Assembly (NCBI RefSeq): GCF_029964055.1
Contig: NZ_CP124836.1
Span: 1,612,001-1,676,000, forward strand
Direction: 5' to 3'
Length of the DNA: 64,000 nucleotides
Source of the DNA: Arthrobacter sp. EM1
GTDB lineage: Bacteria > Actinomycetota > Actinomycetes > Actinomycetales > Micrococcaceae
Part shown: positions 5,390 to 55,635 of the stretch, in pieces
How positions within the stretch are numbered: the first letter of the stretch is position 1
How the letters are laid out: each line of letters starts with the position of its first letter
Program-made: the position numbers and the translations under genes
Notes under the pieces: generated by a model
Database searches by the model: none
What the model was told of the DNA's origin: nothing
Seen by the model: the letters and a program-made list of their open reading frames with translations, nothing else

Positions 5390-7090
5390 GTGAGTGGCAC
5401 GGGCCCTGGGGCCGCGGACTTTTCCAATGCCCCGCCGGCTACCCTGGCCGGCAGCTTAATGGTGGTCCCGGTGCACGTCCTGGAGCTTCGGGCCGAGGTG
5501 TCCTTTGATGCAGTCCGGGGCACGTCGGTGGCCGCGGCGACGATGGATTATCGGGTGGGTCCCACCGGGGGCAACCCGTTTTTCGATTTACGTCAGAGTG
5601 TGGACAGCTGCTGGCTGGACGGGGTGCCGCTCGATCCGGAAATGATCGGCGGGTGCGACGTCGGTGCTGGACCGGCCGGCTCCGTCCGGGTCCTGCGCCG
5701 GTTCCAGGACCGCGGGTCCGTCCACAGCCTTCGGTTCCGCTACCGGTTGGGGTTGCCGCACGCTGAGCTGGGCGGGGCCTCGCCGCCGGTGCTGGAGTGG
5801 TCCGACGGTCCCGCGCTGCGTTGGACGCTGGGCATGTCGGACCTCTTCGCGGGCCGCTACCTGGAAGCCTGGTTCCCCTCCAACCTTCCGTTCGACCAGT
5901 TCCCCGTCACCCTCAACATCACCCTGACAGGGACGGAGGTGGCGCACGTGCTGATCAGCAACGGGGACGTTGCCGTTGGCGGCCCGGGACGCTGGTCCGT
6001 TGCATTCCCGGCGTCGTTCACCACCCTTTCGCACCTTGTGGAGCTCCGCCCGGCGGCCACCGTCGAAGGCCAGAAGTCGACGGTGGTATTACCGGTCTCG
6101 GGCACCGCCGTCACTGTCGAGGCCTGGAAATGCTCCGCCGGACCGGAGGACCTCGGCCATGAGCTGGGCAGGATCGAGAGTCTGCTGGCGCAGAACGAGG
6201 CGGACTACGGCAGGTTCCCGGGGAACCGGTTCGTCTGCTTCTTCAACGGCAACCGCGGTGGGATGGAATACCACCATGGGGCCACCACATCCCGGCGGGC
6301 GCTGGCCCACGAGGTTTTCCATTCCTGGTTTTCCCGCGGGGTCATGCCGGCCTCGCAGGCCGACGGCTGGTGGGACGAGGCCTTCACCTCCTACCATGAG
6401 CACGGCGCCGGCCAATTGGAGGCTTTCGACTTCAATGAAGCCCCGGTGGAACTGTGTTCCCGGCGTCCCTTTGACCGTCGGACCGCGGTCAATGCCTATC
6501 CGGACGGTAGCCGATTCTTCCGCGGGCTGGCCGACGCGCTGGGGGTGGAACGCCTGCGCGCCTGCATGCGGGCCGTATACGCCCGGCATTGCAGCGCTCC
6601 GCTTTCCACGATCGGGCTGGAGGCCGACATCCTGGTTGCGGGCGGTGAGCCGTCTGTGGTCGATGCTTTCCACCGGTTTGTTTACGGGCTTCCCGACCCG
6701 TCGCCGGCTCCGAAGCTTCGGCTCCATGGGTTGGCGGCCCGGGGTGCAGGGGACCGGATCCGGGTCAGTGTGAGCAACGACTCCGGGGGCGGTCCGTGCA
6801 GGCACTTTATGGTGGTGTTTTCGCTGGCCGGTGCCGCTACTGGCGCGGAGCGGGCGGCGGGGGCCTGCCGGAACATCGCCGCTACTGGAGGCTTCGATCT
6901 CCAACCAGGGGAAGAACGAGAAGTCTGGACGACGGCATCGGAAGCCCTCATTCAGAGGTCCTGGACCGGGACGATGCTGGTGGCCTCGGTGCATGCCCGC
7001 GGCTGCGACCCCTCGCCCCGGACCAGGGTATCGGCGCTGTTGCCCCCGGCGCAGGCAACTAGTGCGTCGCAGTTCCCTGCACCGGCATGA
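5390..7090 (+). CDS. M1/M61-like zinc metallopeptidase
   Basis: The 566-aa product carries HEVFH at residues 307-311 and a glutamate in WWDEAF at residue 330, giving the HExxH-X18-E zinc site of gluzincin aminopeptidases (M1/M61 type). The N-terminal third looks like the beta-rich domain of these enzymes. I see no signal peptide, so a cytosolic or non-classically exported enzyme is likely. The GTG at 5390 has only a weak ribosome site (GAGG very close to the start). Its 3' end overlaps the convergent SARP gene by 32 bp. It may belong with the unknown operon at 8-17 kb, which holds further peptidase-like genes, but that link is only positional. Confidence 0.75.
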   Translation: MSGTGPGAADFSNAPPATLAGSLMVVPVHVLELRAEVSFDAVRGTSVAAATMDYRVGPTGGNPFFDLRQSVDSCWLDGVPLDPEMIGGCDVGAGPAGSVRVLRRFQDRGSVHSLRFRYRLGLPHAELGGASPPVLEWSDGPALRWTLGMSDLFAGRYLEAWFPSNLPFDQFPVTLNITLTGTEVAHVLISNGDVAVGGPGRWSVAFPASFTTLSHLVELRPAATVEGQKSTVVLPVSGTAVTVEAWKCSAGPEDLGHELGRIESLLAQNEADYGRFPGNRFVCFFNGNRGGMEYHHGATTSRRALAHEVFHSWFSRGVMPASQADGWWDEAFTSYHEHGAGQLEAFDFNEAPVELCSRRPFDRRTAVNAYPDGSRFFRGLADALGVERLRACMRAVYARHCSAPLSTIGLEADILVAGGEPSVVDAFHRFVYGLPDPSPAPKLRLHGLAARGAGDRIRVSVSNDSGGGPCRHFMVVFSLAGAATGAERAAGACRNIAATGGFDLQPGEEREVWTTASEALIQRSWTGTMLVASVHARGCDPSPRTRVSALLPPAQATSASQFPAPA

Positions 7091-7820
7091 CCAAGCCGAC
7101 CTTCCTGAATAACTCCGGCGAGGGGCGCAACCCCAGTTCGGTCCACAGCAGGCGGGCATATCCGTTGAGCTGCCGCCTGGCCTCGAATACGTTGCCTTCG
7201 CCCAGATGAGCATCGATCAGGAGCCGCTGCGCGGACTCACGCAGCGGCTCCTCGGCAACTACCGCCAGCAAGACGTCGATGGCTTCGATGTAGCGTTCCC
7301 GTTCACGAAGCCTGCGCGCGGTTACCTCGGACGCGTGCAGGCGCATCTGACGCAACTGCTCGCGGGCCAGCAACAGCCAGTCCTCGTCCCAGCCCGGAAG
7401 AAGTTCCTCCGCATGTGCCAGAAACTGCGAATGTTCGGGTTCACCGCGCACATCGGTCAGTACCCGTTCTGCCTGTCGGCGCAGGCGGTGCACATCCACC
7501 TCGACGTCGTCGGCTAGCCACACCCGGTCCGAATCCCCATCGATCAGGCGCGAATCGGCGCTGCGGATCCGCCAGAGTGCCGTCCGGAGGCTTCCGCGGC
7601 AACGTTCGGACGTTGAGTCGGACCACAGCCGTTCGGCCAGCACCGTCCGGTCGCAGTCGTGTGCCCCGAGCTTGTCCAGCGAAAGGTAGGCGATAACGCG
7701 GCGGGCGTGCAGGGGCAACGACACCGGGGCGTTGGCGATGCGCAAGGAGAACCCTCCGAGTAGCGAAAGGCTGACCCGCCCGTCAGAGTGTGCCACGACG
7801 GGACGATGTGATGGGTGCAT
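7059..7820 (-). CDS. SARP-family transcriptional activator (BTAD domain)
   Basis: This 253-aa protein has an N-terminal OmpR-like winged-helix domain (about residues 15-105, LSLLGGFSLRI start) and a bacterial transcriptional activator domain (about 110-245, with the R-ERYIEA and LGLRPSPEL signatures). Such short SARPs activate neighbouring gene clusters, often specialised-metabolism or developmental ones. The gene diverges from the unknown operon beginning near 7.85-8.26 kb and is the obvious candidate to control it. GGGGAGGG precedes the ATG at 7820. Direct repeats at its own promoter suggest autoregulation. Confidence 0.85.
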   Translation of the reverse strand: MHPSHRPVVAHSDGRVSLSLLGGFSLRIANAPVSLPLHARRVIAYLSLDKLGAHDCDRTVLAERLWSDSTSERCRGSLRTALWRIRSADSRLIDGDSDRVWLADDVEVDVHRLRRQAERVLTDVRGEPEHSQFLAHAEELLPGWDEDWLLLAREQLRQMRLHASEVTARRLRERERYIEAIDVLLAVVAEEPLRESAQRLLIDAHLGEGNVFEARRQLNGYARLLWTELGLRPSPELFRKVGLVMPVQGTATH

Positions 7821-7849
7821 CAGGGCCCTCCCCGGATACGCGGCCGTGA

Positions 7850-8176
7850 ATGGATCACTTTGATCATCAGACTCCGACGTCCACCCGGTGTCAACACTAT
7901 GTCAACGCGGACGGAACGTTGACGCTGCAAACGATGGCCGGGCGGGAAGCTGCAGAAGTGGAATATACCGACTACCAGATCATTGTTATCCGGGCCAGGC
8001 GGGACGGGGGCCAGCTGATCGTCCGCATCCTGACCGGCGGGAACCCCGCCGACCCGGCGCGCCAATGGGTCTTCGCCAGCGTCGACGAGGTGTGTGTGCT
8101 GGTCGAGCGACTGCTGGAGGAACTCGGCGGTCCCGGTCCCCGGAGCGCGGCGGTCCCGCCGCGGGGCGGCGGCTGA
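7850..8176 (+). CDS. Small hypothetical protein
   Basis: This 108-codon ORF lies between the SARP gene and the large operon. The central part (EVEYTDYQIIVIRARRDGGQ through FASVDEVCVLVERLLEEL) alternates beta- and helix-forming residues and looks like a folded domain, while the C-terminal tail is Gly/Pro-rich. No family is recognised. The ATG at 7850 has no clear ribosome site and lies within the SARP promoter region; a start at the ATG near 7934 (MAGREAAEVE) would leave the repeats outside the gene. The start is therefore uncertain. Confidence 0.5.
   Translation: MDHFDHQTPTSTRCQHYVNADGTLTLQTMAGREAAEVEYTDYQIIVIRARRDGGQLIVRILTGGNPADPARQWVFASVDEVCVLVERLLEELGGPGPRSAAVPPRGGG
7866..7923 (-). promoter_or_regulatory. 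Probable SARP promoter with GTTGAC repeats
   Basis: On the minus strand TTGACA (7894-7889), a 17-bp spacer and TCTGAT (7871-7866) form a plausible promoter for the SARP gene. GTTGAC occurs at 7906-7901 and again 11 bp on at 7895-7890, overlapping the -35 element; an inverted copy lies at 7918-7923. Eleven-base direct repeats overlapping a -35 hexamer are the known architecture of SARP binding sites. The same block lies at the start of the plus-strand unit, so it could serve both directions. Confidence 0.5.
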
Positions 8177-8257
8177 CGCCGGAAGATACGCAGGATTGAC
8201 GGCCCGGAAGACACCGGACCCGATCATGGGATCAAGAGGAATAATGGAGGTGGGAAA

Positions 8258-10648
8258 ATGAGCGTCGATTCCTATTCGGCTTCTTCCGGAGAAGCCGGGA
8301 GCTATACCTCCCCGTTTGCGGGGCTTTCGCATTTCACCGACCAGGCAGCCCCGGGGGCCGAAGCTCCTTCCGAGGAGTCCGGTGACGCCTTGTTCGAAGC
8401 GATCTATTACACGGATTCCCCCTTTGGCGCCGAGGCTGACAGCGAAGCCGACGTCGAGCGGGAAACGGCTGAAGCACGCGATTTCCTCGAAACCCTCCAT
8501 GACGAGGAATTTGAGGACGCCCTCGAACAGCTGCTCAACGAGGGAGCCTCGCGTGTGCTGGCCGATGCCCAAGAATGGTCTGCGGCGCCGACGGATGCCG
8601 GAACCCGCGAGGCACTCGATGAGTGGATCGATCCGCTGACAAATGAATGGGAAAACTCGATCAACAGGATCGGCGGGGGCCTGGAAAATACCGATTTGAC
8701 CAGACTGAGCGAGCAGGAACTGGACGAGCTCCTGGACTCCCTGGAGCCGGCGCCCACCCTCGGATCGGAGGTCTTCGACAACTTTCTGGGAAAGCTGCTG
8801 CGAAAGGCGAAGTCCTTCATCAAGGAGAGGGTCCGCCAGGCAGGGAACTTCATCAAGAACCCGGTGAAGGGCGTTATCGACCTGGCGAAGAGCGGGCTGC
8901 AGACGATCAAAAGCGGCATCCAGACCATCGGCAAGCACCTGATCGGACCTATCCTCAACAGGCTCAAAGGAATCGGCTTGGCCCTGCTCAAGGGCGTGGT
9001 TAAGAAGCTGGCAGCCCCGCTGACCCGCTTGCTGCCCTCCTATGTGCGGCCGGCCGTGAAGATCCTTATGACCAAGCTTGGTCTTGACGAGGCAGGGGAG
9101 TTCCCGGCGACCGAAACCGAGGAAATTGCGGGGTCCGCCGGAGCGCTGGCACAGAATTTTGACACCGAACTTGTAAACCTGCTGTACCCGGTCGAATCCG
9201 CCGGTGAAGAATCCGGGGAATTCGACGAATCCGAATACATCGAGCCCGAGTTCGATGAGGCTGCCGGGCTGGATGATGCGCGCGCCCGGTTGGCCAGCGC
9301 GCTGAGCGAGCACACCGGAACCGAGCCGCCAACGGCCGAAATTGAACAGTTCCTGCCGGTTGTCCTTGCCATCCGGCCGCTGCTCAAGCTGGGACTGAAA
9401 CTCACCGGCGCCCGGGGGAAGCTCATCAACCTGATTGCCACTCCGCTGGCGAATCTGATCAAGGGGATGGTGGGACCGGAGGCGGCACGGCTCATCGCCA
9501 AGGCCGGGGTCGACGTCGGATTCACCGCCCTGGGCCTGGAGACAAGCCCGCAGCAGGAACAGACCCTGTCCGGGGAGGCCCTGGCCTCCACGGTAGAAGC
9601 GACGGCGATGGAAGTTCTCGACGAGATCACCGATGAAGCGCTCGAGGACCCCCTCCAGGTCAGCGCCGCGGTCCAGCGTGCGTTTTCGCGGGCCGCCGCG
9701 GCCTACCTGCCCGACCGGCTCCTGCGGGCAGATCTGCCCGAACGTGAATCTGCCGGCGCAGAGGGCTACTGGATCCTGATGCCGCGCTCGCTGCGGCCGC
9801 GGTACCGGTTCCGCAAATACTCGCAGGTCTTCGCCGTCCCGATCAGCCGGCAGCAGGCCCGGGCATTAAGATGGTCCGACGGCGGGACGATGGAAACGTA
9901 CCTGTTGGACCGGGGCGTTGACCGTTGGCCCGTACAGGCGGAGATCGACCTTTACGAGACGCTGCCGGGCACGATACCGGGCCACTTCACTCGAGACGAA
10001 GGGTTGCCTGCCGGCGAGCACCCGGTCGACAACGAATTCCAGCCCCTGACAGCGGAAGCCGCGGGCCTGCTGTTGCGGGAACCCGGGCTCGGACGCGCGC
10101 CGCTGGCGCTGCATCGATTCCCCCTGGCACAGCAGCCGGTGCCGGGACAGCGCTACTTCCGGATCCGCGCCGGGCAGCTGCCGGCACGCAAGAGCGCCCG
10201 GCCCAGACGACTGCTCGTCATTGACTGGGATCCGGCCGGCAGGCAACTGCGGATAGCGATCAGGCTCTCGGAGCGCCGGGCCCGGGCGCTGCTGGCATCC
10301 ATCCAACGCTCAGCCCCCTCGGGGCAGCGGGATCTGCCTGCCGTACTCTCGGAACTTCGTGCCATCTACCTTCCACACCTGACAACGAAAATCAGCCGAC
10401 GGCTGCTGCGCTCCTCCCTGGTGAGCGATCCTGCTGCAGCGAACCGGATCGCCGCAGCCATGGCAGCGTCAACGGGTACCGCAATCTCCAAATACCTGGT
10501 CCAGCGGGGCGCGCAGCTGGGCGCCGCCGTCGCGGACCCGGCCTCCGGCGTCACCCTCACCGTGACCTTCACATCGGTTACCGGACATCCGACAGCCGCC
10601 CTGCGGCCGCCAACCGTTTCGGCGAAGCCGGGATGGCACCATGTCTGA
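8258..10648 (+). CDS. Large unknown protein with acidic N-terminus and cationic amphipathic stretches
   Basis: I do not recognise this 796-aa protein. Residues 1-110 are Ser/Gly/Glu-rich and strongly acidic. Residues about 172-275 are a long run of Lys-rich amphipathic helix with short repeats (FLGKLLRKAKSF, SGLQTIKSGIQTIGKHLI, LLKGVVKKLAAPLTRLL), the character of membrane-active peptides. A second, more hydrophobic amphipathic block lies at about 365-425. The C-terminal half (505-796) looks globular and Arg-rich. There is no signal peptide. GGAGGTGGGAAA directly precedes the ATG, so translation should be strong. It opens the operon and overlaps the next gene by eight bases. A membrane-disrupting or scaffold protein is conceivable; nothing proves either. 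Confidence 0.7.
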   Translation: MSVDSYSASSGEAGSYTSPFAGLSHFTDQAAPGAEAPSEESGDALFEAIYYTDSPFGAEADSEADVERETAEARDFLETLHDEEFEDALEQLLNEGASRVLADAQEWSAAPTDAGTREALDEWIDPLTNEWENSINRIGGGLENTDLTRLSEQELDELLDSLEPAPTLGSEVFDNFLGKLLRKAKSFIKERVRQAGNFIKNPVKGVIDLAKSGLQTIKSGIQTIGKHLIGPILNRLKGIGLALLKGVVKKLAAPLTRLLPSYVRPAVKILMTKLGLDEAGEFPATETEEIAGSAGALAQNFDTELVNLLYPVESAGEESGEFDESEYIEPEFDEAAGLDDARARLASALSEHTGTEPPTAEIEQFLPVVLAIRPLLKLGLKLTGARGKLINLIATPLANLIKGMVGPEAARLIAKAGVDVGFTALGLETSPQQEQTLSGEALASTVEATAMEVLDEITDEALEDPLQVSAAVQRAFSRAAAAYLPDRLLRADLPERESAGAEGYWILMPRSLRPRYRFRKYSQVFAVPISRQQARALRWSDGGTMETYLLDRGVDRWPVQAEIDLYETLPGTIPGHFTRDEGLPAGEHPVDNEFQPLTAEAAGLLLREPGLGRAPLALHRFPLAQQPVPGQRYFRIRAGQLPARKSARPRRLLVIDWDPAGRQLRIAIRLSERRARALLASIQRSAPSGQRDLPAVLSELRAIYLPHLTTKISRRLLRSSLVSDPAAANRIAAAMAASTGTAISKYLVQRGAQLGAAVADPASGVTLTVTFTSVTGHPTAALRPPTVSAKPGWHHV

Positions 10649-11894
10649 TTCCAGTACCACCGCCGCGAGGGCGGCCCTCGGTGTCGAAATCCGGCACTGG
10701 CGCCGAGCGTGCGTCGATTTGGGCGACCTGGAGGTTTCGGCGTCACCGGCGGCGTGGAAGGAGCTCGAGTCTTACCTTGGCCTGAACCTCCGCCGGAGCC
10801 TGACCTCCGTCGTTGTTCGCCTCACCGCCCACGCTGATCGTGCCCTCTTTTCGCTCAAGGCCGCCGAGACCGTTGGCGAACTCGCCGCCGTTAGGTCGGA
10901 GTTGCTGATCCTGCGGCGGCGCTATAGCCGGGCCGAAGCTGTCATCGATTTCTACGGCGACGCAGTCAACACCCGGACAAATCCGGTCGTGGCATCGGTG
11001 CTGCGGGGCCTTGACGCGCTTGCCGTTTACAGCATGGACCAGGTTCTCCGGCCGTTGAACATCGACACTCCGCCGGCGCTTTGCTATCTGGACAAGGGCT
11101 TGGGCGCCTCCATCCTGCGTGCCGGGGCGCGGCTGTGGGATTCCTCCCTGTCGCCGGCCGCTGCCATCAAGATCACCAGGCACAACCTCTGGCAGCCGAC
11201 TTCCCTGGTCCACGAGACCGGTCACCAGGTGGCACACCTGACAGGGTGGACGACGGAACTGGGCACAGCACTCTACAAGGCCTTGGCACCGCACAACACA
11301 CTGGTGGCCGAAGTATGGCGGGCCTGGGCTGCGGAGGTGGCCGGCGACGTGTACGCCTTTGCCTTGCTGGGCTACGCGCCGGTACCAGCGCTGGCGACGG
11401 TTGTTGACGGCCCTGCCCAGCTCGTCTATCGCATGCTCCCGGGCGATCCGCACCCCATATCGGCGCTGCGGGTCCAGTTTAATGTGGCGCTCTGCCGCTC
11501 CTGGTACGGAGCCGGGCCCTGGGACGTGCTGGGCGCCGGGTGGCTGGCCCGGTACCCGCTGGGACAGGCTCCCCGCGAGGTTGCCGAGATCATGGCCGAG
11601 AGCATGCCCCTGCTGCCGACCATCGTGGATGTGTGCACGCGCCAACCGATGCAGGCATTCCACGGCGTTCCGCTTGCTGCGCTCGCAGACCCTCGGCGGC
11701 TGTCCCCGGCCGAACTCGACCGCTTGGCCCAGCGGTCAGGGGACTCGCTTTACACCTCGAACCATCTGCAGCGGTTGGAGCCGCTGCGGATATTGGCCTT
11801 GAGCGTACTCCGCGGCCTCGAGTCCCAAAACACGCCAACCGAAATGCGAACGTGGCTGAGCCGCCTCGGCGGCGAGCGGCCCATCGCCGCATAA
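10641..11894 (+). CDS. Putative zinc metallopeptidase (HETGH) of the unknown operon
   Basis: The 417-aa product carries LVHETGHQVAH, an HExxH zinc motif at residues 191-195, followed by WAAEVAGDVYAF, whose Glu232 (or Glu224) could be the third ligand. The distance from the motif is larger than in M1/M61 enzymes and I cannot name a peptidase family. The N-terminal 160 residues are helical. No signal peptide or membrane helix is seen. Translation is coupled to the preceding gene (8-bp overlap) and the next ORF follows after 17 bp, so it is a core member of the operon. The motif is clear; catalytic activity is inferred. Confidence 0.7.
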   Translation: MSDSSTTAARAALGVEIRHWRRACVDLGDLEVSASPAAWKELESYLGLNLRRSLTSVVVRLTAHADRALFSLKAAETVGELAAVRSELLILRRRYSRAEAVIDFYGDAVNTRTNPVVASVLRGLDALAVYSMDQVLRPLNIDTPPALCYLDKGLGASILRAGARLWDSSLSPAAAIKITRHNLWQPTSLVHETGHQVAHLTGWTTELGTALYKALAPHNTLVAEVWRAWAAEVAGDVYAFALLGYAPVPALATVVDGPAQLVYRMLPGDPHPISALRVQFNVALCRSWYGAGPWDVLGAGWLARYPLGQAPREVAEIMAESMPLLPTIVDVCTRQPMQAFHGVPLAALADPRRLSPAELDRLAQRSGDSLYTSNHLQRLEPLRILALSVLRGLESQNTPTEMRTWLSRLGGERPIAA

Positions 11895-11911
11895 GCAGGA
11901 GAGATGACACC

Positions 11912-12481
11912 ATGACCGAGCAATACACCCCGCAGGGATCTGCCGAGCAGTTCGCGCAGAACGTCGCCCAATTGGTCAGCGCCTTCGGACGCGGCCCGCA
12001 GCAGGAGCTCCGGCCGGAGCAGCAGCAACTCATTTTGCAGTTCCGCGCCCTCCGCAACGGTCTGGGAAACTTCGGTCGGCACGGGGAAACCCCGGACAAG
12101 GCGATCCTCGCATCCCCTGATATCAGTCCCGGCGATGCACGGAACGCACGCTACACCTTGACCTTCGTCGAGGCACTGCCAAGCCGCGCGGCCAGCATCC
12201 TGCTGCGCTACCCGCATCCGCCGTTCGAGTCGTTCTACTCCGTAGGCGACGTCGACAACGAGTACTGGGAACTTGTCATCGCGGACCCGGAGGTGGCTTC
12301 CGTTGAAGTCTGGGATGCCCATGGCGAGCCGCTAGCCGTGGGAGTCCCGCACTTCCACGACAAGGGCAGGAACCGCAGCAAACAAAAGACCTCGGTCACC
12401 GGCCGCCCGGTCCCGTCCAGCCCAGTATCCGAGACTCCCTCCCGCCGCCAGCCCGGCGGCTCAGCCACCGTGAAGGACTAG
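11912..12481 (+). CDS. Unknown 189-aa protein of the operon
   Basis: No family is recognised. Residues 1-60 are Gln-rich and helical; about 75-145 look like a beta-sandwich (RYTLTFVEALPS, ELVIADPEVASVEVWDAHGE); the last 40 residues are a Ser/Pro/Arg-rich disordered tail. The middle part could be an accessory or carbohydrate-recognition-like fold, but no motif supports more than that. The ATG at 11912 has AGGAGA eight bases upstream. The gene sits 17 bp after the metallopeptidase gene and two bases before the next gene. Confidence 0.65.
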   Translation: MTEQYTPQGSAEQFAQNVAQLVSAFGRGPQQELRPEQQQLILQFRALRNGLGNFGRHGETPDKAILASPDISPGDARNARYTLTFVEALPSRAASILLRYPHPPFESFYSVGDVDNEYWELVIADPEVASVEVWDAHGEPLAVGVPHFHDKGRNRSKQKTSVTGRPVPSSPVSETPSRRQPGGSATVKD

Positions 12482-12483
12482 CC

Positions 12484-13827
12484 ATGTTCCGGACATTAGT
12501 CGGACTAATCCCCGATCCAGTTTCACCAGCGCCCGCATGGAAACTTGAAGAAAAGGCCAACGCCGTAATGGCCGTCCACCCGCTGCAGCTCAGCAGATGG
12601 CTGGAAGAAGTGTGGTCTCAAGGCGGAATTGCCAACCCTGCCTGGCAGGCGATCCTCGGCGGCGGAGGTTCGGTGCCGGTGCCGTTGGGGGATCCGGACG
12701 CCGTTACCAAGACCACGCTGCCCCAGTTGCTTCGCGATACCCTGCTTTCCGGCATTGACCCGGCGCCAGGTTCGCCAACTCCGTTGCAGCCCTACAACCC
12801 AACATCCGCATTTCAGAAGCTGACGCCCCCGCCGGTATGGGAGAACCTGCTCTACGCCTACTTGGTGGAAGCGACCGGCGTTTTCGAGATCCTGGGCGAA
12901 GTGGTGCGGCGCTACGCATGGGGTGAGAGCCTTCCGGCGCCCAGTGTGGATACCCTGGTTTGGGCACGGAATACCGAGCAGCTGTTCTTCCGCGATCCAC
13001 CGCTTTTCGGAATGGGCGGGCTGATGACCAGCCAGCTGCGGCCGGACGCCAGCATCAACCGGCGCAACATCTATTGGCGAATGTTTGGGCTGGACCTGCC
13101 GCACGCTCCAACGAAGGCCGTGGAAGGCCAGCCCTGGAAGCTCAACATCGGCACCGCCGGCAACACCAGATTCCTTGAACTATGGAACGAACTGCTCAGG
13201 CAGGTCTGGATGGGCATCGAAAATGACAGAAACTCCTCGGGCTCCAATTCCACGGATCCCACGTATATCGGCTACCTTTGCCAAACCATCGGCGAAATGC
13301 TGCAGCTCCGACGGCGCGGCGGAATGGTTTCTCAGGAGGAATTTGCCTACGTCACAATGCTCAGCTGGTTCCACCTGACCGTTGAATACGATACGTCACT
13401 GGTCGTGGACCTGCATGCCAATGCCGGTGGGCTGGGGAATGCAGCCGACCGGCTGTCGGCCATCGGCAAAGTGGTGGGGATCGCCCCCTCGAGGCAGGCG
13501 CGTGAGCTGTTCGAACTCGCAGACCTCGTGTCCACCCTGATGTGGCTCATCGAATTGGGCATGTTCAACGCCACGGACAAGGCGACACTGCTCTACAAGA
13601 AGGACGGCGTGGCCAACCCGAAGATTGCCGAAACCATGAACCGCATCATCGACCTCTGGCAATCGGGCACCGGCGAGCGGGTCAAGGACCTGGCGATCAC
13701 CACCCGCCGCCCCCAACTTGACCTGCGTTCAGCGCAGCCCACCAGGCTCCCGGGCCCCGGGGCTTCCGTTCCAGTGACGGTCCCGTCTAGTAATGGAAAC
13801 CGGGCCCCAGCCGGGCCCCGGCTCTGA
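12484..13827 (+). CDS. Unknown 447-aa protein of the operon
   Basis: No domain is recognised. The protein is mainly helical with many Trp residues (WLEEVWSQGG, WARNTEQLFF, RRNIYWRMFGL) and ends in a Pro/Ser-rich tail of about 40 residues. No signal peptide is present, and the more hydrophobic segments (LSWFHLTVEYD, LADLVSTLMWLIEL) look like buried helices rather than membrane spans. AAGGAC precedes the ATG, and the gene begins two bases after its upstream neighbour, so it should be translated from the same mRNA. Function unknown. Confidence 0.65.
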   Translation: MFRTLVGLIPDPVSPAPAWKLEEKANAVMAVHPLQLSRWLEEVWSQGGIANPAWQAILGGGGSVPVPLGDPDAVTKTTLPQLLRDTLLSGIDPAPGSPTPLQPYNPTSAFQKLTPPPVWENLLYAYLVEATGVFEILGEVVRRYAWGESLPAPSVDTLVWARNTEQLFFRDPPLFGMGGLMTSQLRPDASINRRNIYWRMFGLDLPHAPTKAVEGQPWKLNIGTAGNTRFLELWNELLRQVWMGIENDRNSSGSNSTDPTYIGYLCQTIGEMLQLRRRGGMVSQEEFAYVTMLSWFHLTVEYDTSLVVDLHANAGGLGNAADRLSAIGKVVGIAPSRQARELFELADLVSTLMWLIELGMFNATDKATLLYKKDGVANPKIAETMNRIIDLWQSGTGERVKDLAITTRRPQLDLRSAQPTRLPGPGASVPVTVPSSNGNRAPAGPRL

Positions 13828-13841
13828 GCGAAAGAACGACC

Positions 13842-16800
13842 ATGGAAAAGCTTGAAATGTCCAGCATATTTGCGCCCCCGGCGCATCTGGTCCCGGACGT
13901 TGGCACCGAGTCATGGCCCACTCCAAGCGTGTTCTCCCTCCCAGACGGGGGCAGCGAAACGTCATGGGATGAGACAACCGACGAATATGCCGACGAATAT
14001 GCCGGCCAGACAGAATGGAACGAGAGTACCGGCGAAGCGGCCTGGAATGAGCTTGGCTGGGACGAAACCGCCGACGAGTCAACGGACGAGGCCGCTGATG
14101 AATTCGCCGACGAGGCAACGGACGAGGCCGCTGATCAATTCGCCGACGAGGCAACGGACGAGGCCGCTGATCAATTCGCCGACGGCGCCGGGGAACTGGG
14201 CGGTCAGGCGCAGGAAAACGGCGAGGTTGAGGAATCCGAACTTGCCTCAATGCTCGCAGCAGAGCCGCTGCTGACAGGCCAGCATCATGAGGGATTCGAA
14301 ACCGGACTTGTACTGGTCCCGAGCCCCGGCAATCAAGGGAAGGGGGAAGAGCATTGGGACCCGCACAACACCGGAGTCCCCATTTACGCGACCGGCGCCG
14401 GCGTCCGGAAGGAAAAGCTCTCCAGGAACTTCACCGTGGGCGAACTCGCCTCCAGCGGGGGCCGGGCCGATGACCGGGCGAGGATTTCCGCGGAGCTTGT
14501 GACAGCGCTCCAGGCCATCCGTGACCGGGCGGCCCGGCCAGTTAAGATCACATCGGGATACCGTTCCTGGGCCCGGAACGTTGCGGTCTACCGCAGAGCT
14601 GGGAAGAGCCCAACGCTCAGCCGCCACTGCAGCGGCCAAGCGGCGGACATCAAGATCGCCGGCCTGAACGGAATGCAGATCGCGAAGCTGGCGCTCGACG
14701 CCTGCGGTGAAGGAATCGGCGTCGGCATCGGCGGGAACTTCGCGCACGTTGACGTGCGCGGCTCCTGGGCCAAATGGACTTACTTCAGCGGCGACAAGAA
14801 CCGCAAGGCGCTCGCGGAAATCGAAAGCTACAGGCGGCACCGGAAATCCGCACCGCCGCGGCCACTACCGCCAGTCCATCCGGGAACCGCATCAGATGTG
14901 GCGGCCGGCAGGCTGGTCGTTAATGAGTTGCCCCTACTGGCATCACACGCGGGCACGCATCCCGATCTTGTGCTGAAGTGGAATGCCATGACCCGCCCGT
15001 CCGTCGTCGACGTGGTAGTGCACCTGCATGGGCACACGCCCAGCGGATATGCCCTGAACATCGCGAAGGAGAAGGAGCCGTTCAGCGGGCTGGACATCGC
15101 AAACCCGGAGCAGCCGGGCGGACCTGCCCGGACCCGACCGACGCTCTTGGTGTTGCCGCGCGGCAACCACGCCCCCCGGACCAAGGCCGGGCACAACAAC
15201 CAGCGCTATACCTTTCCGGCGCTGACCCAAGCGGGTGGGCTCCAAGCCCTTGTAGCGGCCGCCCTTGAGAGATTCACCGCGAGCACGGGCGCCACGGTGG
15301 CGGTGGACAGGCTGATCCTTACGGCGCATTCCGGCGGCGGGGCGGCGCTGATGTCAATCCTTGACCACAACAACCCGCACGAGATTTACACGTTCGATGC
15401 CCTCTACACCGACCCGGCACGGTTGATCGGCTGGGCCCAGCGCCGAATGGCGGCCGGAACGGGCGCCCTCCGTGTTATCTACCGGCCAGGGGAGCAAACG
15501 GCCCGACACAGCGAGGCCGTGCACGCAGCCCTTCGGAATACCGCCTCGCCCAGCTTCCGGGTCGAAGGCACCAGGGTCAGCCATGGCAACATTCCCCGCC
15601 ATTTCGGCTGGAGATTCCTGGTGGATCCGTCCGCTGATGTACCGGACGTTGTGAAGCTGGCGGCGGGCAGCATCCTCCCGGAAGCGCCCGCCGCCGAATG
15701 GACAACGGTCGGGGAGAGGGACGAAGCCGCGTTCACGGATGAATCAGCGTATCTGGACGAGGCGCTTTACGCGGACGAGGGCGCTGAAGTTGAAGAAATG
15801 CAGTCGCTGCCGGCGATGGAGGCAGTGGAGGGAGCCGAATCGGTGGAGGCATCGGAGTCCTTTGACGAAGCGGGTCCTTTCGCACTGGAGGCTGCACCCT
15901 TCGCTTTATTGGAGGCGCCCTCACCCCGGGCTCCGGTATGTGGCGCGCTGCGGGGCGACGAACCCAAGTTTCGGCTAGGCGGTGCATCAACGAAGGAGGG
16001 GGTGGCAGAACCCCGGACCACCCAGGACCCGCGCGTCTACGGAGTTCAACTCTGGGACTACAAGGTCAATGACTATGCCTTGCGCGCCAGGCACCTTCAG
16101 GCTCTGCAAATCCTGGTGGCAAAGATCGCCGCCGATGTTCGCTCGGGCCGCTTCTCCGACGCCGGGTGGAAAATCAGCGTCGATGGTTTTGCCTCGAGAA
16201 CGGGCAACGTTGATCACAACCTGAGTCTTTCGTTTTGGCGGATGACGACGGTGGCGCGTTGCCTGGAATGTCTGCTGGCCGCGGCCGGCATTCCGCCGGG
16301 ACGAGTGACCATGGGGGACCAGCGCGGGTTGGGTTTCCAAGACGCGGTCCCCAACGTCGAGGACCCGCGCAGGCGCCTTGTGCAGGTATCAGTTCACCCG
16401 CCGGGGCTCAGGCCCCCGCCCGTGCGGCCATCGTCGGATCGTTTCGAGATCTGTTTCACCTCGCTGAAGAACCAGGTCCAGTCCCTGCCGATACCCGGAA
16501 CGGCGGGTATGCTCGGTGTCGCTCGAACCACCGCAGCGTACCGGATACGTGATATCCAGACCCGCCAGGTACAGGCATACAGCTATACGGGACTCGGATT
16601 TATGCTGCAGGTTCCGGTGGACAAAATCATCCCCGCAGGGGTCAAAAAGCGCCTACCCAAACCGTTGCTGGATATGATCGGAAAGCTCCTGGCCAAGGTG
16701 GTACCCGGCGGGGGCAAACCCGGGACGGGCACCTGTACGCCTTTTGGCGTGTTCGTCTTTCCGACGCCGGACCCGGTACGCATTCCTGGCCCCGTTATCG

Positions 16801-17075
16801 GCGTTCGTTCGTTCGCCGGCGACGCCGACCTGATGGTACCGGCACCGGGACTGGGGAACGTGCAGATCCGGTTCAACAATTCGATCTTTCGTCTGCACAG
16901 CAAGGCCCTCGTCAATCCGGACCCGCTTGAGGTCAACGTATCGCGGGCGCTCTCCGCCAAGGCGATTATTGGCACACAGGGCACCGCCACGATGGTCGGC
17001 CCGGTCTCTCACGAGGACAGCAGCGAGATGGAGGCAGGGCTGGACGTTGCCGAAGGCATCTTCGCGGAACACTAG
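13842..17075 (+). CDS. Multidomain M15 peptidase / hydrolase-like / OmpA-like protein with acidic repeats
   Basis: This 1077-aa protein combines several parts. Residues 1-135 are very acidic, including three 12-residue repeats (DEATDEAADQFA type). Residues about 190-310 are an M15-type D,D-peptidase with SRHCSGQAAD (His262, Asp269) and HVD (His302, Asp304). About 385-590 resembles an alpha/beta hydrolase with a TAHSGGG nucleophile elbow (Ser497). A second acidic linker (630-690) precedes an OmpA-like peptidoglycan-binding domain (about 734-853, with DGFASRTG and PNVEDPRRRLVQVSVH). The last 220 residues are unassigned. No signal peptide is visible although the M15 and OmpA parts both point to peptidoglycan. 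It ends the operon. Confidence 0.75.
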   Translation: MEKLEMSSIFAPPAHLVPDVGTESWPTPSVFSLPDGGSETSWDETTDEYADEYAGQTEWNESTGEAAWNELGWDETADESTDEAADEFADEATDEAADQFADEATDEAADQFADGAGELGGQAQENGEVEESELASMLAAEPLLTGQHHEGFETGLVLVPSPGNQGKGEEHWDPHNTGVPIYATGAGVRKEKLSRNFTVGELASSGGRADDRARISAELVTALQAIRDRAARPVKITSGYRSWARNVAVYRRAGKSPTLSRHCSGQAADIKIAGLNGMQIAKLALDACGEGIGVGIGGNFAHVDVRGSWAKWTYFSGDKNRKALAEIESYRRHRKSAPPRPLPPVHPGTASDVAAGRLVVNELPLLASHAGTHPDLVLKWNAMTRPSVVDVVVHLHGHTPSGYALNIAKEKEPFSGLDIANPEQPGGPARTRPTLLVLPRGNHAPRTKAGHNNQRYTFPALTQAGGLQALVAAALERFTASTGATVAVDRLILTAHSGGGAALMSILDHNNPHEIYTFDALYTDPARLIGWAQRRMAAGTGALRVIYRPGEQTARHSEAVHAALRNTASPSFRVEGTRVSHGNIPRHFGWRFLVDPSADVPDVVKLAAGSILPEAPAAEWTTVGERDEAAFTDESAYLDEALYADEGAEVEEMQSLPAMEAVEGAESVEASESFDEAGPFALEAAPFALLEAPSPRAPVCGALRGDEPKFRLGGASTKEGVAEPRTTQDPRVYGVQLWDYKVNDYALRARHLQALQILVAKIAADVRSGRFSDAGWKISVDGFASRTGNVDHNLSLSFWRMTTVARCLECLLAAAGIPPGRVTMGDQRGLGFQDAVPNVEDPRRRLVQVSVHPPGLRPPPVRPSSDRFEICFTSLKNQVQSLPIPGTAGMLGVARTTAAYRIRDIQTRQVQAYSYTGLGFMLQVPVDKIIPAGVKKRLPKPLLDMIGKLLAKVVPGGGKPGTGTCTPFGVFVFPTPDPVRIPGPVIGVRSFAGDADLMVPAPGLGNVQIRFNNSIFRLHSKALVNPDPLEVNVSRALSAKAIIGTQGTATMVGPVSHEDSSEMEAGLDVAEGIFAEH
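14081..14184 (+). repeat. 36-bp tandem repeat coding for acidic 12-residue units
   Basis: Three in-frame units of 36 bp begin at 14081, 14117 and 14153 (each opening AACGGACGAGGCCGCTGAT) and encode TDEAAD(E/Q)FADEA-like repeats. They differ by only a few bases, so they are recent or conversion-maintained and prone to change in copy number. Confidence 0.85.
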
Positions 17076-54588: not shown

Positions 54589-54693
54589 GGTTTACCTAGA
54601 AGGCCGGATGGAATTGAGTCTCAGGGGCGGATCCGAATAGCTCCTTTCGGCGCTTCCAGGCGCGATTAGTTGATAGTTGGGGAGGGGATCAAC

Positions 54694-55635
54694 GTGGAGA
54701 ATCCGAGCGAACCCACGGTGGCAATTTCGGTCCGGCTGTTCGGATCGTTCGAGGTCCGGCGAAACGGCACCGTCCTCAAAGCAGCGGACCTGGGAGGCTG
54801 CAAGCCGCGCCACATCCTGGAGATTCTCCTGCTGAACCTTGGCACACCGGTGTCAAAGGCCCGGCTTGTGGAGATCCTGTGGGGACCCCGGGCCAGCGGC
54901 GGCGCCGTCGCCACACTGGAGAGCTATGTCAGCAGCCTCCGGCGCGCGATCCAGCCAGGCAACACCAAGTCGGGCCCGCTTCGTACCGCAAACTCTGGCT
55001 ACCTGCTGGACCCGCAGCTGGTGACACTGGACTTGTTTGAGTTCCGCGAACTGCTACGCACGGCCCGGAACTCTCCGCCGGCCCAGGCGCATGCACTCTC
55101 GATGCGGGCCCTGGAACTGGCGAGGGAACCGCTGCTGGGCTTTGAACTCGCGGCCGACTGGGCGGAGGAGGCCCGGACCCGCCACGAAGCCGACAAATTG
55201 GGGGCCCAGATTCTCGCGGCTGAAACGGCTGCGTTCCTCGCTCGGCCCCAGCTCGCCATTTCACTGGCGCAGGCCGTAATCCGGTCCGAGCCGCTCAACG
55301 AACGTGCATGGACGGTCCTTGTCGCCGGATACGAGCAGGCGGGCCTGCCGGTTGAGGGCCTCTCAGCGTATGAGCGCTGCCGCCGGCTGTTCGACCGTGA
55401 CCTGGGCTGCGCTCCGGGGCCAGCCTTGCAGACTGCCCACCTGAGGCTGCTGAGGCAACAAGCCGAGGGAAACGCGGAGCTCTCGGAAGTCCTGGCAGCG
55501 GTGCTCTATCTGGGGGAGCGGCTGCATGGCTCCAAATCGGTGCAGCCTGCCGCGGCGGACTCCCGGCGCCTGCAGGAGAACGCCGGCCGGGTGCTCGGCT
55601 CTTTTATGCAACAGGCGCTGGCCATGGCGGTCTGA
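54694..55635 (+). CDS. SARP-family transcriptional regulator (BTAD domain), second copy type
   Basis: This 313-aa SARP has an OmpR-type winged helix (VRLFGSFEVRRNGTVL ... RLVEILWGPRASGGAVATLESYVSSLRRAIQ) and a BTAD domain (about 105-245, EPLNERAWTVLVAGYEQAG, YERCRRLFDRDLGCAPGPAL), followed by 60 extra helical residues. It is only distantly similar to the SARP at 7059-7820. GGAGGGG lies six bases before the GTG at 54694, which I prefer to an upstream TTG. Its target may be the divergent HtaA-type gene. Confidence 0.85.
   Translation: MENPSEPTVAISVRLFGSFEVRRNGTVLKAADLGGCKPRHILEILLLNLGTPVSKARLVEILWGPRASGGAVATLESYVSSLRRAIQPGNTKSGPLRTANSGYLLDPQLVTLDLFEFRELLRTARNSPPAQAHALSMRALELAREPLLGFELAADWAEEARTRHEADKLGAQILAAETAAFLARPQLAISLAQAVIRSEPLNERAWTVLVAGYEQAGLPVEGLSAYERCRRLFDRDLGCAPGPALQTAHLRLLRQQAEGNAELSEVLAAVLYLGERLHGSKSVQPAAADSRRLQENAGRVLGSFMQQALAMAV

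Follow-up and report, generated by a model that had tools for sequence, protein, structure and literature searches.

A gene cassette with a conserved multigene core and an interchangeable payload gene beside a SARP-type regulator in Arthrobacter sp. EM1

The described systems nearest to the locus reported here are the extracellular contractile injection systems (eCIS; PVC/Afp), polymorphic toxin systems, phage holin-endolysin cassettes and SARP-controlled clusters of secondary metabolism. The effectors of eCIS have signals at the N-terminus and lack a Sec signal peptide (PMC11297309), the metallopeptidase signature of PVCs is HExxHxxQ and polymorphic toxin systems have dedicated releasing peptidases (both PMC3482391), and the PimR operator has three heptamers at 11-bp spacing (PMC5930380). 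Our subject is a five-gene cassette at positions 8258-17075 of a 64,000-nucleotide stretch of Arthrobacter sp. EM1 DNA (the window), which lies within a single complete chromosome of 3.89 Mb (G000); the GC content of the locus is ordinary. The conserved core of the cassette (genes P0004, P0005, P0006 and P0007) lies outside the described families and is unlike known delivery systems, and its last gene, which we call the payload, is interchangeable. P0004 and many payloads begin with an [ST]PF tag and an acidic leader in place of a signal peptide. In our judgment the chances are about even that the locus is a SARP-controlled cassette that arms and deploys antibacterial lytic effectors.

Gene order, recurrence and transfer

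An earlier note on this DNA had described five large genes that face a SARP gene and are packed so closely that they overlap or lie no more than 17 bp apart. Its coordinates and the facing orientation agree with ours and the spacing stands (one 8 bp overlap, then gaps of 17, 2 and 14 bp), but P0006, at 189 aa, is small. The five genes follow a small open reading frame (ORF), P0003:

8258..10648, + strand: P0004 (core family c1), with SPF tags at residues 18 and 54, an acidic leader, an FLG helix, a helical body and a C-terminal alpha/beta part
10641..11894, + strand: P0005 (core family c0), an HExxH...E metallopeptidase by its sequence, active site intact
11912..12481, + strand: P0006, a small cassette protein with homologues in the same position elsewhere
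12484..13827, + strand: P0007 (core family c2), all-helical in its AlphaFold 2 (AF2) model, with no known fold
13842..17075, + strand: P0008, the payload, with tag, M15 peptidase, hydrolase-like domain and OmpA-like part

A first search with P0005 gave a match in 11 of 297 genomes of the class, and a second, with a four-sequence alignment against 84,980 species genomes, gave 49 loci; gene calling and clustering were done on 59 loci. Of these, 55 have the P0004 family, 58 have P0005 and 55 have P0007, side by side on one strand; synteny of the core (c1-c0-c2) holds in 55 of 58 loci from several phyla, and the series P0004-P0005-P0006-P0007 plus a downstream payload gene keeps its order and strand across hosts. 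P0006 homologues occupy the same position in 22 of 53 loci, and the P0003 family (~70 aa) lies directly upstream of the P0004 homologue in 30 of 52 (both by profile search); these two are real genes. Recurrence across phyla is far above chance, and in place of the scattered homologues that would have spoken against a system, the same neighbours are kept from locus to locus. The hosts are many actinobacteria, two cyanobacteria, Verrucomicrobia, Nitrospinaceae (Nitrospinota), Bacteroidota, Fischerbacteria, Methanosarcina and a gammaproteobacterial bin (Competibacteraceae), although some host placements of metagenome-assembled genomes are possibly wrong bins. The Methanosarcina contig was verified as archaeal, since the same 253 kb contig encodes RfcL, MtrH and CDC48.

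All of these loci were found via P0005, and a reverse search was therefore made with P0007. It is present in 9 of 150 genomes of the genus, where P0005 adjoins every full-length match and P0006 nearly all; in 396 genomes of the phylum, only its own genome and one fragment matched. Thus the cassette is rare and patchy. Compared pair by pair, the loci show correlated divergence among the three core families (rho 0.86-0.88). A tree of P0005 places the window with Nocardia, Mycolicibacterium and Millisia and apart from the other set of Arthrobacter sequences (97/89 support), while Methanosarcina is nested in bacteria, beside Fischerbacteria; both placements suggest that the cassette has been horizontally transferred. 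A plasmid search with P0007 gave no match, and phage records and viral contigs contain no P0005 homologue. The P0005 of Arthrobacter sp. H16F315 is 99% identical, which makes that locus a near twin of the window. We also note that in Arthrobacter sp. OVS8 (L074) the cassette is split into many fragments, as expected for a decaying accessory locus.

Core proteins, payload gene and N-terminal tag

The P0003-P0007 families gave no convincing match in Pfam, NCBIfam, PHROGs or PADLOC. The PDB gave none to profiles built from P0004, P0005 and P0007 sequences, and Foldseek with AlphaFold models of P0004 and P0007 gave none at E 0.001. No core member could be matched to a secretion, phage or toxin system already described, in keeping with the earlier note's proposal of an undescribed one, and no product has a hydrophobic N-terminus, so its reading that signal peptides are absent also stands. 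The HETGH metallopeptidase that it recognized is confirmed and conserved: the active-site sequence of P0005 reads HETGHQVAH and is joined by a downstream glutamate, a gluzincin-type feature. Because H191, E192, H195, E232, D236, H271, P272 and R277 are invariant in all 44 full cassettes, P0005 is predicted to be an active HExxH...E peptidase. The all-helical P0007 model (pLDDT 83.5, pTM 0.84) matches no fold in the PDB and none among viral models. P0004 opens with an acidic leader region (residues 1-170 have a net charge of -36; the model leaves the first 60 disordered), followed by a cationic stretch (net +11 over residues 171-290) with a cationic amphipathic FLG helix at about 173-190; its strongest hydrophobic moment is at the conserved FLG motif, FDNFLGKLLRKAKSFIKE, and its C-terminal part is mixed alpha/beta in the model. 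Weak matches of P0004 to tape-measure proteins (PHROGs E 0.09-0.3) were set aside as helical noise.

The payload was scanned in a set of 40 proteins; nearly all of their genes come right after P0007, and a few members of the set are possibly unrelated neighbours. The tally is mostly lytic enzymes, peptidoglycan hydrolases foremost, with counts of 7 for peptidoglycan (PG)-binding, 6 for M15, 5 for glucosaminidase, 4 for VanY, and 3 each for DUF2272 and OmpA; M23, phage lysozyme, trypsin, PLD, SLT, NlpC/P60, CHAP, pesticin-like and endonuclease/exonuclease/phosphatase domains also occur. These enzymes belong to ordinary families, and the novelty refers to the core. Of 42 pairs of loci with a core identity of 60-80%, 26 have payloads that share no homology at all.

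P0008 consists of a tag and acidic leader (residues 1-150), an M15 peptidase (about 208-306), a hydrolase-like domain (about 355-600), a second acidic stretch, an OmpA-like part (about 740-840) and a C-terminal region. It had been read as an M15-hydrolase-OmpA fusion, and the M15 domain is firm (PF08291, E 9e-13), with residues 191-327 also matching the endolysin-type enzyme phrog_894 (E 4e-24). The middle domain, which recurs in many payloads, matches no family, nor anything in the PDB by sequence profile, and is called a hydrolase tentatively, from its AHSGGG motif only. The OmpA-like part is weak in P0008 (NCBIfam E 0.02-0.09; PADLOC MotB E 0.003) and clear in the Jiangella counterpart (PF00691, E 4e-10).

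Like phage holin-endolysin cassettes, the locus has lytic enzymes without signal peptides beside a membrane-active-looking protein. The main rival explanation, which we regard as unlikely, is self-directed programmed lysis or wall remodelling, with P0004 holin-like, the payload endolysin-like and the peptidase as trigger. The resemblance of payloads to endolysins (phrog_894) and, at locus L082, to a sporangiospore wall hydrolase (NCBIfam GsmA) would suit it, as would the missing signal peptides and the many developmentally complex actinobacteria among the hosts. It fits poorly with a presence as patchy as that in the genus, with the swapping of payload types (PLD-like and trypsin-like included) among close relatives, and with an archaeal carrier that has peptidoglycan-directed domains. 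Methanosarcina has no peptidoglycan, and its payload combines SLT, DUF2272 and PG-binding domains, so the target of that payload should be foreign. Unlike holin-endolysin cassettes, moreover, this one has no phage or viral homologue, much larger proteins, a peptidase and SARP control. A protein complex related to storage, the cell surface or stress, envelope-bound for instance, whose hydrolases merely make room in the cell's own wall, seems to us improbable: OmpA-like domains occur in payloads, and the acidic proteins and amphipathic helices could be structural, but the variety of lytic domains, the archaeal carrier and the strictly kept peptidase residues argue against it.

The acidic openings that the earlier note took for possible tags are backed by a common N-terminal motif. 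P0004 homologues open with a single [ST]PF[AL] motif or with a pair spaced by about 26 residues, a bipartite tag (SPFLEEELF...W...ESPFLxAFEQG) opens the payloads at the archaeal, Fischerbacteria and cyanobacterial loci, and the form in P0008 is SIFAPP...W...SVF. The single motif occurs in 38 of 52 c1 members and 16 of 70 payload genes vs 5 of 188 other genes, and the bipartite tag in 11 of 42 payloads vs 1 of 203 other genes (0.4 expected from shuffles), a strong enrichment over the neighbouring genes; the p-values of these counts are not blind, because the motif was spotted by inspection and then counted. A search with a profile of three tags is the fairer test. Among 12 other carrier genomes it found one extra protein, in Thermosynechococcus, which by position is the gene after the P0007 homologue, and it matched no protein in 193 other cyanobacteria.

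Comparison with delivery systems and a proposed mechanism

The cassette resembles eCIS (PVC/Afp) in its interchangeable effectors, which have signals at their N-termini but none for Sec, in its occurrence in bacteria and archaea, and in the HExxH peptidase family that marks both. It differs in its defined [ST]PF tag, in a core unrelated to tail parts, in the absence of DUF4157 (no Pfam match at the locus), and in P0005, whose HETGHQVAH stands against the HExxHxxQ-E of PVCs. Sheath family PF04984 is absent from the window genome and nine other carriers, Methanosarcina and Jiangella among them (10 of the 17 genomes searched; control genomes matched), and over the cut-off in 6 of the 17, and the proximity to secretion loci that the earlier note had raised was not found. 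The tail tube family PF06841 gave no match in the window genome, nor in the control genomes. That the cassette is a loading module for effectors of an eCIS encoded elsewhere would agree with the non-Sec signals and the six sheath-bearing genomes, but the ten without a sheath, the want of DUF4157 and the different peptidase signature have already weakened this explanation and leave it highly improbable. Dependence on eCIS is rejected for the window genome, which has no sheath.

With polymorphic toxin systems the cassette shares the exchange of effector domains beside a conserved part, here a putative trafficking side, and a dedicated peptidase that may act in release. That part, however, is here a separate multigene core rather than an N-terminal toxin domain, and the N-termini of P0004 and P0008 match no Pfam or NCBIfam domain, so no known trafficking domain was matched. 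Because it fails at defining features of eCIS, of phage lysis and of described polymorphic-toxin trafficking domains, we do not file the cassette under any of them. No description of it was found in open-licence papers (subscription literature and preprints were outside the scope).

In the arming and deployment that we propose, the SARP regulator would switch on the operon, P0004, P0005, P0006 and P0007 would form a conserved handling core that would also be the delivery part, and the last gene would supply an interchangeable effector, made in the cytoplasm and aimed at the envelope of other cells. The core, perhaps through P0007, would recognize the [ST]PF tag and acidic leader of P0004 and of the effector. 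P0005 would then cut the acidic leaders, which would release the effector and unmask the cationic amphipathic helices of P0004, and these may act on membranes and so give the hydrolases access to their substrate; the products would have to leave the producer and would harm other bacteria. The envelope-targeting or antibacterial role suggested in the earlier note is strengthened by the payload tally and the archaeal case, though it stays conjectural. A bolder version, possible but doubtful, is cross-domain delivery without a contractile or membrane-channel machine, in which P0007 would assemble the tagged carrier P0004 with the tagged enzymes, P0005 would activate them, and the amphipathic helices of the carrier would insert them into or onto foreign cells.

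Several points weigh against effector deployment. We identified no delivery machine, the P0004 of this genome lacks a clear transmembrane segment (maximum Kyte-Doolittle value 1.45), and no immunity gene is obvious among the neighbours, where no immunity-family search was made. Arthrobacter and Streptomyces payloads have divergent forms of the tag, the strict pattern misses many actinobacterial payloads, and no tagged payload adjoins the cassette in Bacteroidota. Among the payload domains OmpA, M15 and glucosaminidase, for example, serve ordinary wall remodelling too, and domain matches are no demonstration of toxicity.

Regulation, neighbouring genes and distant subtypes

Upstream of P0004 lie the following features:

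7878..7906, + strand: putative SARP operator, heptamer repeats CGTCCAC-CCGG-TGTCAAC-ACTA-TGTCAAC
7059..7820, - strand: P0002, SARP-type regulator, BTAD domain (PF03704) over the cut-off
7850..8176, + strand: P0003, small conserved protein with profile matches in relatives
5390..7090, + strand: P0001, M1/M61-like peptidase of 566 aa in the extended locus, with HEVFH-x18-E and GGMEY in its sequence

As in SARP-controlled clusters of secondary metabolism, a BTAD regulator adjoins the operon, and the three 7-bp repeats with 4 bp spacers at 7878-7906 have the same layout as the PimR operator (PMC5930380); unlike those clusters, the operon here has no biosynthetic genes and its product is protein. 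The repeats lie within the 5' part of P0003 as annotated. Because the conserved core of P0003 starts at 7934, and because of the operator position, its true start is probably 7934, downstream of the repeats and not at 7850. Heptamer pairs (<=2 mismatches) also occur upstream of the cassette at L027-L032 and L064 (the twin Arthrobacter, Nocardia, a Pseudonocardiales bin and Nocardioides), and as a background 2.08 Mb of other strand sequence holds 4 such sites. The SARP cluster (c3) was found in 32 loci, and at most of the other SARP-bearing ones the heptamer of the window's SARP is missing upstream; two TGTCGAC pairs (L045, L046) stand at loci without a called SARP gene. We infer that P0002 may bind 7878-7906 and control the cassette. 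The genome has just one further BTAD (SARP-type) match, inside the same window at 54670-55635 (+).

The M1/M61 assignment of P0001 is visible in its motifs, but its PF01433 match is below the cut-off (E 0.0015); its family (c6) adjoins the cassette in 10 of 59 loci. On the other side of the cassette, at 17154-18335 (-), three overlapping ORFs in different frames look by eye like parts of one acetyl-xylan-esterase-like gene, and the close relative L027 has a single 340 aa gene in their place; judged by eye only, this is a frameshifted copy or a sequencing error.

More distant loci keep the P0005 family with other partners. L020 (an Arthrobacter-genus locus) and three loci on rhizobial/Burkholderia megaplasmids have acidic glycine-zipper proteins with an FLG segment and a helical protein:

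L080: Ensifer adhaerens plasmid
L081: Paraburkholderia phymatum pBPHY01
L082: Rhizobium sp. CCGE532 plasmid

L020, L080 and L082 also encode an aminotransferase-like protein (by eye; no family match), L020 and L080 a sigma-54 activator, and L080 and L082 peptidoglycan-directed payloads (PG-binding + GIY-YIG, or DUF2272 + glucosaminidase domains). In profile comparisons the P0004 counterpart is supported in the FLG segment alone (E 4e-6), and P0007 matched its presumed counterparts in two distant subtypes at E 0.08 and 0.06 (probability about 1%), which is only suggestive of homology between the helical proteins. We also note sigma-54 (RpoN) genes beside this subtype in actinobacteria, at L020:6283-7575, L020:14890-16338 and L019:8054-9406 (PF04552 and PF04963 over the cut-off), L020 being of the same genus as the window; Actinobacteria have been reported to lack sigma-54 (PMC3162934). 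A third arrangement (L021, L022, L023) has long EDELE-type acidic proteins, an HExxH peptidase, a helical protein of 380-414 aa and, read by eye, an M20-like peptidase gene.

If the cassette does arm and deploy lytic effectors, it would be a new class of antagonistic machinery, with a patchy distribution that takes in bacteria as well as at least one methanogen, and with a link, in actinobacteria, to regulators of antibiotic production. The tag, together with the marker gene P0005, would offer a way to find payload enzymes, new lysins included, and the cassette would bear on how enzymes without signal peptides exit from Gram-positive and archaeal cells.

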